This document shows, one piece after another, positions 5,765-53,294 of a DNA stretch of 64,000 bases. The notes beneath the pieces were generated by a model. The model saw only the letters and a program-made list of their open reading frames with translations. It had not been told where the DNA came from and did not search any database. Position 1 is the stretch's first letter; every line of letters starts with the position of its first letter. Source of the DNA: Archivesica marissinica (Eukaryota > Mollusca > Bivalvia > Venerida > Vesicomyidae); contig CM026397.1 of assembly GCA_014843695.1 (NCBI GenBank), positions 52,376,101 through 52,440,100 on the forward strand. The letters run 5' to 3'. The position numbers were made by a program, and so were the translations under genes.

Positions 5765-8700
5765 AAGTGCACTGGTAAAGTAGCTTACGCACTGATAAAG
5801 TAGCTAGCACACTGATAAAGTACTTTACCCACTGATAAAGTAGCTTACCCACTGATAAAGTACCTTACCCACTGATAAAGTACCTTACCCACTGATAAAG
5901 TAGCTAACCCACTGATACAGTAGCTAACCCACTGGTAAAGTAGCTAGCGCACTGGTAAAGTAGCTAACCCACTGATACAGTAGCTAACCCACTGATAAAG
6001 TACCTTACCCACTGGTAAAGTAGCTAACACACTGATAAAGTACCTTACCCACTGATAAAGTACCTTACCCACTGATACAGTAGCTAACCCACTGGTAAAG
6101 TACCTTACCCACTGATAAAGTACCTTACCCACTGATACAGTAGCTAACCCACTGGTAAAGTACCTTACCCACTGATAAAGTACCTTACCCACTGATACAG
6201 TAGCTAACCCACTGGTAAAGTACCTTACCCACTGGTAAAGTACCTTACCCACTGATAAAGTACCTTACCCACTGGTAAAGTAGCTAACCCACTGATACAG
6301 TAGCTAACCCACTGATAAAGTACCTTACCCACTGATAAAGTACCTTATCCACTGGTAAAGTAGCTAGCACACTGATACAGTAGCTAACACACTGATAAAG
6401 TAGCCAGCACACTGATACAGTAGCTAACACACTGATACAGTAGCTAACACACTGATAAAGTAGCTAGCACACTGATACAGTAGCTAACACACTGATACAG
6501 TAGCTAACACACTGATAAAGTACCATTACCCACTGATAAAGTACCTTACCCACTGATAAAGTACCTTACCCACTGATAAAGTACCTTACCCACTGATACA
6601 GTAGCTAACCCACTGGTACAGTAGCTAACCCACTGATAAAGTAGCTAGTGCACTGATACAGTAGCTAACGCACTGATACAGTAGCTAACCCACTGATAAA
6701 GTAGCTAGCACACTGATACAGTAGCTAACACACTGATACAGTAGCTAACACACTGATAAAGTACCTTACCCACTGATAAAGTACCTTACCCACTGATAAA
6801 GTACCTTACCCACTGATACAGTAGCTAACGCACTGATACAGTAGCTAACCCACTGATAAAGTAGCTAACCCACTGATACAGTAGCTAACCCACTGATACA
6901 GTAGCTAACCCACTGATACAGTAGCTAACGCACTGGTACAGTAGCTAACCCACTGATACAGTAGCTAACCCACTGGTAAAGTAGCTAACCCACTGATAAA
7001 GTAGCTAGCACACTGATACAGTAGCTAACCCACTGATACAGTAGCTAACCCACTGGTACAGTAGCTAACCCACTGATACAGTAGCTAACCCACTGGTAAA
7101 GTAGCTAACCCACTGATACAGTAGCTAACCCACTGATAAAGTAGCTAACCCACTGGTAAAGTAGCTAACGCACTGATACAGTAGCTAACCCACTGATACA
7201 GTAGCTAGCACACTGATATAGTAGCTAGCACACTGATACAGTAGCTAACACACTGATAAAGTACCTTACCCACTGATACAGTAGCTAACCCACTGATAAA
7301 GTAGCTAACGCACTGATACAGTAGCTAACCCACTGATACAGTAGCTAGCACACTGATAAAGTAGCTAGCACACTGATACAGTAGCTAACACACTGATAAA
7401 GTAGCTAACCCACTGATACAGTAGCTAACCCACTGATAAAGTAGCTAACCCACTGATACAGTAGCTAACCCACTGGTAAAGTAGCTAACCCACTGATACA
7501 GTAGATAACCCACTGATAAAGTAGCTAACACACTGATACAGTAGCTAACCCACTGGTAAAGTAGCTAACCCACTGGTAAAGTAGCTAACGCACTGATACA
7601 GTAGCTAACCCACTGATACAGTAGCTAGCACACTGATATAGTAGCTAGCACACTGATACAGTAGCTAACACACTGATAAAGTACCTTACCCACTGATACA
7701 GTAGCTAACCCACTGATAAAGTAGCTAGCACACTGATACAGTAGCTAACCCACTGGTACAGTAGCTAACCCACTGATACAGTAGCTAACCCACTGATAAA
7801 GTAGCTAACGCACTGATACAGTAGCTAACCCACTGATACAGTAGCTAGCACACTGATAAAGTAGCTAGCACACTGATACAGTAGCTAACACACTGATAAA
7901 GTACCTTACCCACTGATACAGTAGCTAACCCACTGATAAAGTAGCTAGCACACTGATACAGTAGCTAACACATTGATAAAGTACCTTACCCACTGATAAA
8001 GTACCTTACCCACTGGTAAAGTAGCTAACCCACTGATACAGTAGCTAACCCACTGATAAAGTACCTTACCCACTGATAAAGTACCTTACCCACTGGTAAA
8101 GTAGCTAACCCACTGGTAAAGTAGCTAGCACACTGATAAAGTACCTTACCCACTGATACAGTAGCTAACCCACTGATACAGTAGCTAACCCACTGATAAA
8201 GTACCTTACCCACTGATAAAGTACCTTACCCACTGGTAAAGTAGCTAACCCACTGATACAGTAGCTAACCCACTGATAAAGTAGCTAACACACTGATAAA
8301 GTACCTTACCCACTGATAAAGTACCTTACCCACTGATACAGTAGCTAACCCACTGATAAAGTAGCTAACCCACTGATACAGTAGCTAACACACTGATACA
8401 GTAGCTAACACACTGATAAAGTACCTTACCCACTGATAAAGTACCTTACCCACTGATACAGTAGCTAACCCACTGGTACAGTAGCTAACCCACTGATAAA
8501 GTAGCTAGTGCACTGATAAAGTAGCTAACCCACTGATACAGTAGCTAACGCACTGATAAAGTAGCTAACCCACTGATACAGTAGCTAACCCACTGGTAAA
8601 GTAGCTAACCCACTGGTAAAGTAGCTAACCCACTGATACAGTAGCTAACCCACTGATACAGTACCTTACCCACTGGTAAAGTAGCTAACCCACTGATACA

Positions 8701-11700
8701 GTAGCCAACCCACTGATACAGTACCTTACCCACTGGTAAAGTAGCTAACGCACTGATACAGTAGCTAACCCACTGGTAAAGTAGCTAGCACACTGATAAA
8801 GTACTTACCCTCTGATACAGTAGCTAGCACACTGATAAAGTACCTTACCCTCTGATACAGTAGCTAACCCACTGATAAAGTAGCTAACGCACTGGTACAG
8901 TAGCTAACCCACTGATACAGTAGCTAACCCACTGATACAGTAGCTAACCCACTGGTAAAGTAGCTAACCCACTGATAAAGTAGCTAGCACACTGATACAG
9001 TAGCTAACCCACTGATACAGTAGCTAACCCACTGGTACAGTAGCTAACCCACTGATACAGTAGCTAACCCACTGGTAAAGTAGCTAACCCACTGATACAG
9101 TAGCTAACCCACTGATAAAGTAGCTAACCCACTGATACAGTAGCTAACCCACTGGTAAAGTAGCTAACCCACTGATACAGTAGATAACCCACTGATAAAG
9201 TAGCTAACACACTGATACAGTAGCTAACCCACTGGTAAAGTAGCTAACCCACTGGTAAAGTAGCTAACGCACTGATACAGTAGCTAACCCACTGATACAG
9301 TAGCTAGCACACTGATAAAGTAGCTAGCACACTGATACAGTAGCTAACACACTGATAAAGTACCTTACCCACTGATACAGTAGCTAACCCACTGATAAAG
9401 TAGCTAGCACACTGATACAGTAGCTAACCCACTGGTACAGTAGCTAACCCACTGATACAGTAGCTAACCCACTGATAAAGTAGCTAACGCACTGATACAG
9501 TAGCTAACCCACTGATACAGTAGCTAGCACACTGATAAAGTAGCTAGCACACTGATACAGTAGCTAACACACTGATAAAGTACCTTACCCACTGATACAG
9601 TAGCTAACCCACTGATAAAGTAGCTAGCACACTGATACAGTAGCTAACACATTGATAAAGTACCTTACCCACTGATAAAGTACCTTACCCACTGGTAAAG
9701 TAGCTAACCCACTGATACAGTAGCTAACCCACTGATAAAGTACCTTACCCACTGATAAAGTACCTTACCCACTGGTAAAGTAGCTAACCCACTGGTAAAG
9801 TAGCTAGCACACTGATAAAGTAGCTAGCACACTGATAAAGTACCTTACCCACTGATACAGTAGCTAACCCACTGATAAAGTAGCTAGCACACTGATAAAG
9901 TACCTTACCCACTGATACAGTAGCTAACCCACTGATACAGTAGCTAACCCACTGATAAAGTACCTTACCCACTGATAAAGTACCTTACCCACTGGTAAAG
10001 TAGCTAACCCACTGATAAAGTAGCTAACCCACTGATACAGTAGCTAACCCACTGATAAAGTAGCTAACACACTGATAAAGTACCTTACCCACTGATAAAG
10101 TACCTTACCCACTGATACAGTAGCTAACCCACTGATAAAGTAGCTAACCCACTGATACAGTAGCTAACACACTGATACAGTAGCTAACACACTGATAAAG
10201 TACCTTACCCACTGATAAAGTACCTTACCCACTGATAAAGTACCTTACCCACTGATACAGTAGCTAACCCACTGGTACAGTAGCTAACCCACTGGTACAG
10301 TAGCTAACCCACTGATACAGTAGCTAACGCACTGATAAAGTAGCTAACCCACTGATACAGTAGCTAACCCACTGGTAAAGTAGCTAACCCACTGATACAG
10401 TAGCTAACCCACTGATACAGTACCTTACCCACTGGTAAAGTAGCTAACGCACTGATACAGTAGCTAACCCACTGATACAGTAGCTAACCCACTGATAAAG
10501 TACCTTACCCACTGATACAGTAGCTAACCCACTGATAAAGTACCTTACCCACTGGTAAAGTAGCTAACCCACTGATAAAGTACCTTACCCACTGATAAAG
10601 TACCTTACCCACTGATAAAGTAGCTAACCCACTGATAAAGTAGCTAACCCACTGATAAAGTACCTTACCCACTGATACAGTACCTACCCACTGGTAAAGT
10701 AGCTAACCCACTGATAAAGTACCTTACCCACTGATACAGTACCTTACCCACTGGTAAAGTAGCTAACCCACTGATAAAGTACCTTACCCACTGATAAAGT
10801 ACCTTACCCACTGGTAAAGTAGCTAACGCACTGATAAAGTACCTTACCCACTGGTAAAGTAGCTAACCCACTGATAAAGTAGCTAACACACTGATAAAGT
10901 ACTCCACTGATAAAGTACCTACCCACTGATACAGTAGCTAACCCACTGATAAAGTACCTTACCCACTGGTAAAGTAGCTAACCCACTGATAAAGTAGCTA
11001 ACCCACTGATACAGTAGCTAACCCACTGATAAAGTAGCTAACCCACTGGTAAAGTAGCTAACCCACTGGTAAAGTAGCTAACCCACTGATAAAGTACCTT
11101 ACCCACTGGTAAAGTAGCTAACCCACTGATACAGTAGCTACCACAAAACCCACAAACACCCACTGATAAAGTACCTTACCCACTGATACAGTAGCTAACC
11201 CACTGATAAAGTAGCTAACCCACTGATACAGTAGCTAACACACTGATACAGTAGCTAACCCACTGATAAAGTACCTTACCCACTGATAAAGTACCTTACC
11301 CACTGATACAGTAGCTAACCCACTGGTACAGTAGCTAACCCACTGATAAAGTAGCTAGTGCACTGATAAAGTAGCTAACCCACTGATACAGTAGCTAACG
11401 CACTGATAAAGTAGCTAACCCACTGATACAGTAGCTAACCCACTGATAAAGTAGCTAACCCACTGGTAAAGTAGCTAACCCACTGATACAGTAGCTAACC
11501 CACTGATACAGTACCTTACCCACTGGTAAAGTAGCTAACCCACTGATACAGTAGCTAACCCACTGATACAGTACCTTACCCACTGGTAAAGTAGCTAACG
11601 CACTGATACAGTAGCTAACCCACTGGTAACACTGATAAAGTACTACCCCTGATAAGTACTACCCACTGTAAGTACCTAACCCACTGATACAGTAGCTAAC

Positions 11701-14700
11701 CCACTGATACAGTAGCTAACCCACTGGTAAAGTAGCTAACCCACTGATAAAGTAGCTAGCCACTGATAAGTAGCTAACCCACTGATACAGTAGCTAACCC
11801 ACTGATAAAGTAGCTAACCCACTGATACAGTAGCTAACCCACTGGTAAAGTAGCTAACCCACTGATACAGTAGCTAACCCACTGATAAAGTAGCTAACCC
11901 ACTGATACAGTAGCTAACCCACTGGTAAAGTAGCTAACCCACTGATACAGTAGCTAACCCACTGATAAAGTAGCTAACCACTGATACAGTAGCTAACCCA
12001 CTGGTAAAGTAGCTAACCCACTGGTAAAGTAGCTAACACCACTACCCACTGTACAGTAGCTAACCCACTGTAAGTACTACCCACTGTAAAGTAGCTAACC
12101 ACTGATAAGTAGCTAACCTAAGTACTACCACTGATAAAGTACCTACCCACTGATACAGTAGCTAACCCACTGATAAAGTAGCTACCACTGTAAGTACTTG
12201 ATAAGTACTACCCACTGATAAAGTACCTTACCCACTGGTAAAGTAGCTAACCCACTGATACAGTAGCTAACCCACTGATAAAGTACCTACCCACTGATAA
12301 AGTACCTTACCCACTGGTAAAGTAGCTAACCAGCTAACCCACTGATAAAGTAGCTAACGCACTGATAAAGTACCTTACCCACTGGTAAAGTAGCTAACCC
12401 ACTGATACAGTAGCTAACCCACTGATAAAGTACCTTACCCACTGATACAGTAGCTAACGCACTGATAAAGTACCTTACCCACTGGTAAAGTAGCTAACCA
12501 CTGGTAAAGTAGCCAACCACTGGTAAAGTAGCTAACCACTGGTAAAGTAGCTAACGCACTGATAAAGTACCTTACCCACTGGTAAAGTAGCTAACCACTG
12601 GTAAAGTAGCTAACCCACTGATAAAGTAGCTAACGCACTGATAAAGTAGCTAACGCACTGATAAAGTAGCTAACCCACTGATAAAGTACCTTACCCACTG
12701 ATACAGTACCTTACCCACTGGTAAAGTAGCTAACGCACTGATAAAGTACCTTACCCACTGGTAAAGTAGCTAACCCACTGATACAGTAGCTAACCCACTG
12801 GTAAAGTAGCTAACGCACTGATAAAGTACCTTACCCACTGATAAAGTACCTTACCCACTGATAAAGTACCTTACCCACTGATAAAGTACCTTACCCACTG
12901 GTAAAGTAGCTAACCCACTGATACAGTAGCTAACCCACTGATACAGTACTACCCACTGATAAGTAGCTAACCCACTGATAAAGTACCTTACCCACTGATA
13001 CAGTAGCTAACCCACTGGTAAAGTAGCTAACCCACTGATAAAGTACCTTACCCACTGGTAAAGTAGCTAACCCACTGATACAGTAGCTAACGCACTGATA
13101 AAGTACCTTACCCACTGATAAAGTACCTTACCCACTGATAAAGTACCTTACCCACTGATAAAGTAGCTAACCCACTGGTAAAGTAGCTAACGCACTGATA
13201 AAGTACCTTACCCACTGGTAAAGTAGCTAACGCACTGATAAAGTACCTTACCCACTGGTAAAGTAGCTAACCCACTGATAAAGTACCTTACCCACTGATA
13301 CAGTAGCTAACCCACTGATAAAGTAGCTAACCCACTGGTAAAGTAGCTAACCCACTGGTAAAGTAGCTAACCCACTGATAAAGTACCTTACCCACTGGTA
13401 AAGTAGCTAACCCACTGATACAGTAGCTAACCCACTGATACCGTACCTTACCCACTGATACAGTAGCTAACCCACTGATAAAGTACCTTACCCACTGATA
13501 CAGTAGCTAACCCACTGGTAAAGTAGCTAACCCACTGATACAGTAGCTAACGCACTGATAAAGTACCTTACCCACTGATAAAGTAGCTAACCCACTGATA
13601 AAGTAGCTAGCACTGATAAAGTACCTTACCCACTGGTAAAGTAGCTAACCCACTGGTAAAGTAGCTAACCAACTGATACAGTAGCTAACCCACTGATACA
13701 GTAGCTAACCCACTGATAAAGTAGCTAACGCACTGATAAAGTACCTTACCCACTGATAAAGTAGCTAACCCACTGATACAGTAGCTAACCCACTGATACA
13801 GTAGCTAACCCACTGGTAAAGTAGCTAACGCACTGATAAAGTAGCTAACCCACTGGTAAAGTAGCTAACACACTGATACAGTAGCTAACCCACTGATAAA
13901 GTAGCTAACCCACTGGTACAGTAGCTTACCCACTGATAAAGTAGCTAACCCACTGGTACAGTAGCTAACCCACTGATAAAGTAGCTAGTGCACTGATACA
14001 GTAGCTAACCCACTGATAAAGTAGCTAGTGCACTGATACAGTACGTTACCCACTGGTAAAGTAGCTAACGCACTGATAAAGTACCTTACCCACTGATACA
14101 GTAGCTAACCCACTGATACAGTAGCTAACCCACTGATACAGTAGCTAACCCACTGATACAGTAGCTAACCCACTGATAAAGTAGCTAGTGCACTGATACA
14201 GTACCTTACCCACTGATACAGTAGCTAACCCACTGATAAAGTAGCTAGTGCACTGATACAGTAGCTAACACACTGATACAGTAGCTAACACACTGATAAA
14301 GTACCTTACCCACTGATACAGTAGCTAACCCACTGATACAGTAGCTAACCCACTGATACAGTAGCTAACCCACTGATACAGTACCTTACCCACTGATACA
14401 GTAGCTAACCCACTGATACAGTAGCTAACGCACTGATACAGTACCTTACCCACTGATACAGTAGCTAACCCACTGATAAAGTAGCTAGTGCACTGATACA
14501 GTAGCTAACCCACTGATACAGTAGCTAACGCACTGATACAGTACCTTACCCACTGATACAGTAGCTAACCCACTGGTAAAGTAGCTAATGCACTGATACA
14601 GTAGCTAACCCACTGATACAGTAGCTAACGCACTGATACAGTAGCTAACCCACTGATAAAGTAGCTAACCCACTGATAAAGTACCGTATGTCGATGTGCA

Positions 14701-33764: not shown

Positions 33765-33877
33765 ATGAAAATTACCAGAAGATGGCAATCGAGACTCTTG
33801 AGGAGTTGGACTGGTGCATGGATCAGTTGGAGACCATACAAACACATCGGTCTGTTAGTGATATGGCTTCCAGCAAG
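33765..33877 (+). CDS. PDE4: PDE4 (dunce-type cAMP phosphodiesterase) internal exon, start of UCR2
   Basis: Single internal exon of a cAMP-specific 3',5'-cyclic phosphodiesterase 4. Seen: the frame reads [14 protein letters not shown], then [15 protein letters not shown], then SVSDMASSK, and stops matching PDE4 exactly at the GT donor. From knowledge of the family, this matches the N-terminal part of upstream conserved region 2, [17 protein letters not shown] in vertebrates and ETLEELDWC...[11 protein letters not shown] in fly dunce. UCR2 contacts UCR1 and folds over the catalytic pocket to inhibit cAMP hydrolysis; the capping helix and the catalytic domain lie in later exons not seen here. 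The acceptor is a T-rich tract ending TTTTAG at 33764; the donor is AAG|GTGAGTA at 33878. The exon enters with one codon base supplied by the previous exon (here G of GAT would otherwise be the acceptor G) and ends on a complete Lys codon. Reading on past the donor meets a stop within the second repeat unit, consistent with splicing at 33877. The last 36 bp are also the first part of the downstream minisatellite. Confidence 0.93.
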
Positions 33878-35564
33878 GTGAGTACACAGCCATACCGACA
33901 CACCAGTCCGTTAGTGATATGCCTTCCAGCAAGGTGAGTACACAGCCATACCAACACACCAGTCTGTTAGTGATATGCCTTCCGGCAAGGTGAGTACACA
34001 GCCATACCAACACACCTGTCCGTTAGTGATATGCCTTCCAGCAAGGTGAGTACACAGCCATACCAACACACCAGTCCGTTAGTGATATGCCTTCCAGCAA
34101 GGTGAGTACACAGCCATACCGACATACCTGTCCATTAGTGATATGCCTTCCAGCAAGGTGAGTACACAGCCATACCTGTCCATTAGTGATATGCCTTCCA
34201 GCAAGGTGAATACACAGCCATTCCTGTCCGTAGTGATATGCCTTCCAGCAAGGTGAGTACACAGCCATACCGACAACCGTCGTGTGATATGCCTTCCAGC
34301 AAGGTGAGTACACAGCCATACCGACATACCTGTCCGTAGTGATATGCCTTCCAGCAAGGTGAGTACACAGCCATACTGTCTAGTGATATGCCTTCCAGCA
34401 AGGTGATAACAGCCATTCCTGTTAGTGATATGCTCCAGCAGGTGAGTACACAGACCTACCTGTCCGTAGTGATATGCTTCCAGCAAGGTGAGTACACAGC
34501 CATACCTGTCCGTAGTGATATGCCTTCCAGCAAGGTGAGTACACAGCCATTCCTGTCCGTAGTGATATGCCTTCCAGCAAGGTGAGTACACAGCCATTCC
34601 TGTCCGTAGTGATATGCCTTCCAGCAAGGTGAGTACACAGCCATTCCTGTCCGTAGTGATATGCCGTCCAGCAAGGTGAGTACACAGCCATACCGACATT
34701 ACCTGTCCGTTTGTGATATGTCTTCCAGCAACGTGAGTACACAGCCATACCGACATACCTGTCCCTTAGTGATATGTCTTCCAGCAAGGTGAGTACACAA
34801 CCATACCGACATACCTGTCCCTTAGTGATATGTCTTCCGGCAAGATGAGTACACAGCCATACCGACATACCTGTCCCTTAGTGATATGTCTTCCAGCAAC
34901 GTGAGTACACAGCCATACCTGTCCGAAGTGATATGGCTTCCAGCAAGGTGAGTACACAGCCATACCTGTCCGTTTGTGATATGCCTTCCAGCAAGGTGAG
35001 TACACAGCCATACCTGTCCGTAGTGATATGGCTTCCAGCAAGGTGAGTACACAGCCATACCTGTCCGTAGTGATATGCCTTCCAGCAAGGTGAGTACACA
35101 GCCATACCAACATACCTGTCCCTTAGTGATATGTCTTCCAGCAAGGTTAGTACACAGCCATATCAACATACCTGTCCATTAGTGATATGGCTTCCAGCAA
35201 GGTGAGTACACAGCCATACCGACATACCTGTCCATTAGTGATATGCCTTCCAGCAAGGTGAGTACACAGCCATACCGACATACCTGTCCATTAGTGATAT
35301 GCCATCCAGCAAGGTGAGTACACAGCCATACCGACATACCTGTCCGATAGTGATATGGCTTCCAGCAAGGTGAGTGCACAGCCATACCGACATACCTGTC
35401 TGTTTGTGATATGCCTTCCAGCAAGGTGAGTGCACAACCATACCGACATACCTGTCCATTAGTGATATGCCATCAAGCAAGGTGAGTACACAGCCATACC
35501 GACACACCAGTCCGTTAGTGATATACCTTCCAGCAAGGTGAGTACACAGCCATACCGACATACC
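33842..35564 (+). repeat. Minisatellite made of the PDE4 exon 3' end plus its splice donor, 33 donor-like sites
   Basis: Tandem array with a 56-bp unit (shorter 44-50-bp variants in the middle). The first unit is the real exon end: 36 bp of coding sequence from 33842 plus 20 bp of intron. Later units repeat TTAGTGATATGCCTTCCAGC followed by AAGGTGAGTA. I count 33 donor positions including the true one, starting 33877, 33933, 33989, 34045, 34101 and 34157 (exact 56-bp spacing), and ending at 35537. Translated in the exon's phase, each full unit again reads [12 protein letters not shown] or close. Most donors keep GTGAGT; a few are altered (GTGAAT near 34205, GTGATA near 34402, GTTAGT near 35145, ATGAGT near 34842). 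The array runs into the N gap, so its true length is unknown. Confidence 0.93.
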
Positions 35565-36564
35565 NNNNNNNNNNNNNNNNNNNNNNNNNNNNNNNNNNNN
35601 NNNNNNNNNNNNNNNNNNNNNNNNNNNNNNNNNNNNNNNNNNNNNNNNNNNNNNNNNNNNNNNNNNNNNNNNNNNNNNNNNNNNNNNNNNNNNNNNNNNN
35701 NNNNNNNNNNNNNNNNNNNNNNNNNNNNNNNNNNNNNNNNNNNNNNNNNNNNNNNNNNNNNNNNNNNNNNNNNNNNNNNNNNNNNNNNNNNNNNNNNNNN
35801 NNNNNNNNNNNNNNNNNNNNNNNNNNNNNNNNNNNNNNNNNNNNNNNNNNNNNNNNNNNNNNNNNNNNNNNNNNNNNNNNNNNNNNNNNNNNNNNNNNNN
35901 NNNNNNNNNNNNNNNNNNNNNNNNNNNNNNNNNNNNNNNNNNNNNNNNNNNNNNNNNNNNNNNNNNNNNNNNNNNNNNNNNNNNNNNNNNNNNNNNNNNN
36001 NNNNNNNNNNNNNNNNNNNNNNNNNNNNNNNNNNNNNNNNNNNNNNNNNNNNNNNNNNNNNNNNNNNNNNNNNNNNNNNNNNNNNNNNNNNNNNNNNNNN
36101 NNNNNNNNNNNNNNNNNNNNNNNNNNNNNNNNNNNNNNNNNNNNNNNNNNNNNNNNNNNNNNNNNNNNNNNNNNNNNNNNNNNNNNNNNNNNNNNNNNNN
36201 NNNNNNNNNNNNNNNNNNNNNNNNNNNNNNNNNNNNNNNNNNNNNNNNNNNNNNNNNNNNNNNNNNNNNNNNNNNNNNNNNNNNNNNNNNNNNNNNNNNN
36301 NNNNNNNNNNNNNNNNNNNNNNNNNNNNNNNNNNNNNNNNNNNNNNNNNNNNNNNNNNNNNNNNNNNNNNNNNNNNNNNNNNNNNNNNNNNNNNNNNNNN
36401 NNNNNNNNNNNNNNNNNNNNNNNNNNNNNNNNNNNNNNNNNNNNNNNNNNNNNNNNNNNNNNNNNNNNNNNNNNNNNNNNNNNNNNNNNNNNNNNNNNNN
36501 NNNNNNNNNNNNNNNNNNNNNNNNNNNNNNNNNNNNNNNNNNNNNNNNNNNNNNNNNNNNNNNN
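35565..36564. other. Assembly gap, exactly 1000 N
   Basis: An uninterrupted run of N whose round length suggests a placeholder. It separates two unrelated arrays, the PDE4 donor minisatellite on the left and a 20-bp array on the right, so both arrays probably extend into it. Confidence 0.99.
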
Positions 36565-53002: not shown

Positions 53003-53294
53003 ACAGATGGATCTGTAGTCCAGTGGTAACACGCTGGACTGGTAATCCAGGGATCGCAGGTTCGATCCCCCGTCTGACCCTAATAAAATTAACAGTCTTT
53101 CAGATGGGACTTAAAACCGAGGTCTCCTGTCGGTGCTGTACACTGTGCACGTAAAAGAACCAGAGGAGATTCTGGAATGGGTCTCTGTCTGTATCATTGC
53201 ACTATCCTCCGAAAATCTAAAATGACCAATCTCTTCAGTAGGCGTCGCTCATATGGGCAACCAGTAGCACGATAAATAAACGTAAAACACACAC
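53003..53294 (+). mobile_element. SINE S3 copy, full length reference
   Basis: Head ACAGATGGATCTGTAGTCCA, A box TAGTCCAGTGG, anticodon arm CTGGACTGGTAATCCAG, B box CAGGTTCGATCCCCC. The loop CTGGTAA resembles a tRNA with a GGT anticodon (Thr), an inferred ancestry. The ~210-bp unrelated body and ACAC-rich tail show that it is a SINE, not a tRNA gene. Confidence 0.9.

Follow-up and report, generated by a model that had tools for sequence, protein, structure and literature searches.

What becomes of a gene when the end of one of its exons, together with the splice donor, is copied over and over into the adjoining intron? The question is raised by a stretch of 64,000 nucleotides from the bivalve Archivesica marissinica (GCA_014843695.1, contig CM026397.1; C12:52376101-52440100 of the 1.54-Gb genome assembly), hereafter the window, in which the UCR2 exon of a PDE4 gene runs into a 56-bp minisatellite. 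The initial annotation had described here an exon/intron boundary amplified into an array of 33 donor-like splice sites on which PDE4 splicing might depend. We read the array as a minisatellite of the kind named “mirage” in lancelets, i.e. a boundary duplication that was enlarged and whose copies are tolerated rather than used, like the arrays at many other donors and acceptors of this genome, and we put the probability of this reading at roughly 0.8.

Structure of the array at the UCR2 exon end

The UCR2 exon end matches the PDE4B structure PDB 4wzi (E=2.4e-14). Tandem Repeats Finder called a repeat at 33850-35564 with a period of 56 and about 32 copies, and cutting at the unit anchor gave 33 units of 42-57 bp, the last one interrupted by an assembly gap; 16 of the 32 complete units are exactly 56 bp long. 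Both the Tandem Repeats Finder call and the unit alignment bear out the amplification of a PDE4 exon/intron boundary, the first unit being composed of 36 exon and 20 intron bases. The number of 33 units up to 35564 stands for the sequence at hand, but this position is not the end of the array, which there runs into 1000 N, so that the true count is at least 33. Small indels occur in units 8-13, which may hold uncorrected assembly error. Since its unit spans the exon-intron boundary, with the authentic boundary at the array edge (the exon is unit 1) and the 32 other copies downstream in the intron, the 56-bp array has, as far as DNA structure tells, the structure that defines a mirage.

Frequency of boundary arrays in the genome

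The array, treated as unique in the initial annotation, proved to be one of many. Boundary-spanning arrays were found at 19 of 120 edges of 60 exons from the PDE (PF00233) and TBC (PF00566) families (95% interval 10-24%), about one edge in six, a count from which PDE4's own two arrays (UCR1 and UCR2), the starting point of the study, were excluded. In the PDE family 11 of 68 edges of 34 exons founded arrays, and in the TBC family 8 of 52 edges (26 loci). The unit includes 6-63 exon bases in all 19 arrays, those of the PDE family among them, and the copies lie on the intron side only. Donors as well as acceptors are affected, and one PDE exon (L043) has a boundary array on each side.

The PDE sample consisted of 36 PF00233 rows minus two array copies of an exon on C16; of the resulting exons, 33 were examined as loci and one (PDE4 52491920) as part of the joined region. 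Of 30 PF00566 rows, 26 formed the TBC sample; left out were two situated within long open frames (C2, C10) and a further two from a duplicated segment of C15. In the latter segment two TBC exons are repeated with identical scores, 11,128 bases apart (C15:22961275-22962702 and 22972403-22973830), so that either the segment was duplicated recently or the assembly contains it twice by error. The 101 negative edges were assessed by self-BLAST at domain-match ends standing in for splice sites, the TBC flanks comprised 170 bp and some of the sampled edges are gene ends; 19/120 is therefore probably a lower bound. Several edges were excluded from the count: in the PDE family L044 and L048, whose units are without exon bases at the judged splice site, and in the TBC family the acceptors of L064 (no exon bases) and L068 (3) and the donors of L065 (2) and L072 (none). 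At L044 (oriented 537-562) a 13-bp duplication of two copies begins two bases before a putative donor GT; it may represent a boundary array that has just arisen.

To edges and to random positions a common test was applied, by which the copies have to cover at least 6 bases on either side of a point and lie on one side of it only. All 19 counted edges passed and four borderline TBC edges failed; the pass rate of random positions was 2.9% in the PDE4 region (46 of 1563) and 4.7% in the PDE loci (35 of 740), while array density predicts 1.7-2.4% per edge. The binomial P values of 3e-9 and 4e-6 against these two controls and the Fisher P of 4e-5 against the larger control rate are only approximate, since the control points drawn from any one locus depend on each other. 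The control positions were random and not composition-matched, and they could land in the UCR1, UCR2 and L038 arrays, which raises the control rate.

These rates bear on the explanation that survives best beside the mirage reading, namely that arrays are everywhere in a minisatellite-rich genome and some straddle exon ends by chance. Tandem repeats with a period of at least 8 indeed occupy 93,556 of 264,000 bases (35%) around PDE4, the gene taken alone gives a weak excess (two boundary-spanning arrays seen among 19 boundaries, 0.33 expected) and none of the six other donors sharing the 14-mer CAGCAAGGTGAGTA has an array. Coincidence is nevertheless made unlikely by the difference between 19 of 120 edges and the 2.9% and 4.7% of control positions.

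Donor strength, reading frames and selection on the decoy donors

As initially annotated, most copies keep a strong 5' splice-site match: GT is retained in 32 of the 33 units, 27 of 33 have a U1 duplex energy of at most -10 kcal/mol and the exact 14-mer CAGCAAGGTGAGTA occurs in 22 of 33. Eight other donors of PDE4 form U1 duplexes of -5.6 to -8.3, so that 27 array units pair more strongly than all of them, and the energy of the exon donor itself was reached by none of 3000 GT sites sampled in the remaining window. The preservation of a 12-residue peptide in many units was overstated, as the exact peptide is present twice and its core SDMxSSK 23 times (three forward frames). The expectation that later donors lead to a frameshift or a stop agrees with the frame, from which skipping of donor 1 is predicted to expose an in-frame TGA that overlaps donor 2. 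Use of donor 2 would add 56 bases and shift the frame, with the TGA spliced away, and donors 3 and later would retain the stop at 33935-33937.

A regulatory reading, in which competing donors or U1 along the array tune productive splicing of PDE4 and array length acts as a dial, could draw on this pairing strength and on human CBS, which carries a boundary-spanning 31-bp variable number tandem repeat (VNTR). The title of a reference links this VNTR to reduced CBS activity. The clam donors, however, are without excess conservation. We scored substitutions per column, leaving out seven anchor columns that had served to cut the units, and found 5 of 276 letters changed in the nine donor columns of 31 decoy units; 7 of 32 nine-column windows were equally low or lower. 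Compared with the rest of the unit, the donor core shows no better conservation, and selection on the decoy donors is not supported.

A second array stands at the end of the UCR1 exon in PDE4 (C12:52341038-52343509, L018). It comprises 22 units of about 115 bp; the sequence is GGTTAG in the exon unit and in the final one but GGCTAG, i.e. GC for GT, in all 20 internal units. At the PDE exon on C16, PDE9-like by its motif, about five 68-bp units start with the exon end, and GT is lost in three of the five. In a motif scan other ladders look intact: the L055 array, of 10.6 copies, has 10 GTAAGT donors, and the L050 array, of 9.0 copies, has 8. The ladders of L063, L066 and L073 are likewise rated as intact. 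Donor upkeep is therefore not a general rule. With the donors dead in every internal UCR1 copy, with similar splice-site ladders at many other exons and with lancelet mirages reported to be splicing-neutral (PMC3087553, PMC3902484), we regard the regulatory explanation as improbable, rather more so than coincidence; a regulatory role of the decoy donors, as suggested in the initial annotation, is unsupported.

The host PDE4 gene

Ten PDE4 exons (UCR1, linker, UCR2, hinge and catalytic) lie in order on the plus strand from 52340981 to about 52496720, over some 156 kb, and their matched stretches are free of stops. A genome search of the one assembly found no second UCR2 copy. A pseudogene or duplicate locus, which the initial annotation had named as a refuting outcome, is consequently not supported. 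The best full-length protein relatives of this PDE4 come from Mercenaria, Mactra, Mya and Dreissena, all heterodont bivalves, so that the genome is most likely a heterodont one. Over the query, the Mercenaria protein shows 80% identity; the record with the highest score is partial (74% over 68%) and carries the name Chaetura pelagica.

A search of the 78 kb that precede the hinge exon (assembled interval to 52487663) did not reveal the next conserved exon, which begins FKRMLNREL (31 residues in Mercenaria), nor did the search of the genome. This exon probably lies in the 35565-36564 gap, because the only gap in the UCR2-hinge interval is the one adjoining the array. The same gap probably hides more of the 56-bp array, and the PDE4 intron after UCR2 may consist mostly of array. 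The 264 kb fetched yielded no match to Mercenaria residues 1-113, which precede UCR1; this part of the gene may be situated farther upstream.

That the copies were created or scrambled by mis-assembly beside the gap is very improbable: the 56-bp array does end at the 1000 N and has its indels in units 8-13, but no N lies near the UCR1 array, and N is present in just one (L038) of the 33 PDE loci and in none of the 26 TBC loci.

The features are compiled in the table below. Further upstream in the window (5770-14683) lies a 20-bp array of about 447 copies, and at 53009-53081 there is a tRNA-like sequence (Rfam, 39 bits), possibly a tRNA-derived repeat.

Table. Features of the PDE4 UCR2 boundary array (positions in the window) and loci with counted boundary arrays in the PDE and TBC samples.
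Feature	Position or loci	Strand	Basis
PDE4 UCR2 exon, 113 bp, peptide of (D) and 37 further residues	33765..33877	+	PDB 4wzi match, PDE4 tblastn, open frame, splice context
UCR2 exon acceptor ...GATTTTAG	directly upstream of 33765	+	splice context
Founder unit: final 36 exon bases (33842-33877) and initial 20 intron bases	33842..33897	+	direct reading, unit list
56-bp minisatellite, 33 units (42-57 bp), gap-interrupted	33842..35564	+	Tandem Repeats Finder, unit list, alignment
True donor AAG/GTGAGTAC, U1 duplex -12.1 kcal/mol	33878..33885	+	U1 pairing energy
Donor sites of 32 decoy units, GT in 31; unit 20 without GT (AAGATGAG)	33934..35545	+	donor scan of units
First in-frame TGA when donor 1 is skipped	33935..33937	+	frame reading
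Assembly gap, 1000 N	35565..36564	.	sequence reading
PDE boundary arrays, acceptors	L038, L042, L043, L047, L049, L057		
PDE boundary arrays, donors	L039, L043, L050, L055, L063		
TBC boundary arrays, acceptors	L065, L084		
TBC boundary arrays, donors	L066, L073, L082, L083, L087, L089		

Comparison with known boundary repeats

The kind of structure is already known from lancelet mirages and CBS; new are the example in a mollusc and the frequency in a genome. Tandem repeats spanning exon-intron boundaries were described in lancelet genes under the name “mirages”, duplications are possible at both ends of an exon, haplotypes differ in copy number and the copies could still act as cryptic sites, while reverse transcription PCR of globins and earlier Adh3 data suggest that mirages do not interfere with splicing (PMC3087553). 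PGBD5 and troponin C were later added to the genes concerned (PMC3902484). Across Adh3, BflGb6, BflGb9, TnC and PGBD5 many but not all copies keep the AG/GT signals, as in the clam, unit lengths are 10-160 bp in Adh3 and the globins, and the mirages are reported not to give aberrant mRNA (PMC3087553, PMC3902484). The clam differs from amphioxus in being a bivalve, in having at least 33 units in its array (3 and 6 units in two BflGb6 haplotypes) and two arrays in one gene, and in that frequency was here measured over 60 exons of two families.

The CBS VNTR, c.1444_1467+7(16_21), also spans an exon end and its donor; by the cDNA name its unit consists of 24 exon and 7 intron bases with a donor in each copy, and its 16-21 copies are polymorphic in length (PMC2630376). 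It belongs to another gene and phylum, and its polymorphism is known, whereas the clam array was read from one assembly. Duplication multiplies splice signals also in the Rogers model, in which introns are gained when AGGT segments are duplicated in tandem (ATP2A1, potato RdRp; PMC4974935), but the clam shows no new intron and its copies sit in an old, conserved one. Beyond lancelet and CBS, no minisatellite at a splice boundary was recognised in our literature search, which was conducted largely without full texts.

Origin and maintenance of boundary arrays

We propose that a tandem duplication across the UCR2 exon end and its donor was followed by growth, probably through slippage or unequal exchange. 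The extra copies lie on the intron side, and the exon unit at the array edge would remain under coding selection. Donor 1 is most likely the one spliced, because it is attached to the real exon, is transcribed first and is followed by donors giving frameshift or stop products. Rare mis-spliced products from these later donors would be removed by decay, and for this reason the copies could be tolerated without being used.

Several points weigh against this account of a tolerated mirage: of nine other genomic sites of the 14-mer, the six examined (L001-L006, four of them look-alikes on C2) are without an array, the intactness of the gene is not fully shown given the conserved exon missing from the assembly and the 5' part that was not found, the retention of donors by 32 of the 33 units might equally reflect a function, and recent homogenisation is not fully separable from selection.

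In this genome minisatellites seem to arise or survive preferentially at exon edges, donor and acceptor alike. We propose more tentatively, at somewhat less than even odds, that exon-intron junctions are hot spots of their birth or survival, about one in six founding an array that multiplies its own donor or acceptor. A possible cause is that deletions removing intronic arrays are free and those removing boundary arrays are often purged, because the exon end would be lost too, which would make boundary arrays longer-lived. Alternatively, the junctions might be fragile in transcription or replication.

If about one sixth of the edges founded arrays, tandem duplication would be directed to splice junctions or selection would spare arrays there, and a literature search found no explanation for either route. 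The abundance of the arrays thus matters more than the PDE4 array by itself, a new example of a known curiosity. If the junctions are indeed hot spots, genuine splice sites would be lined up in ladders within many genes of this clam, and the spliceosome would have to pass over all but the copy attached to the exon. How identical sites a short distance apart are distinguished could then be measured on a library that the genome itself supplies. These series of near-identical donors or acceptors would also be raw material for intron gain.
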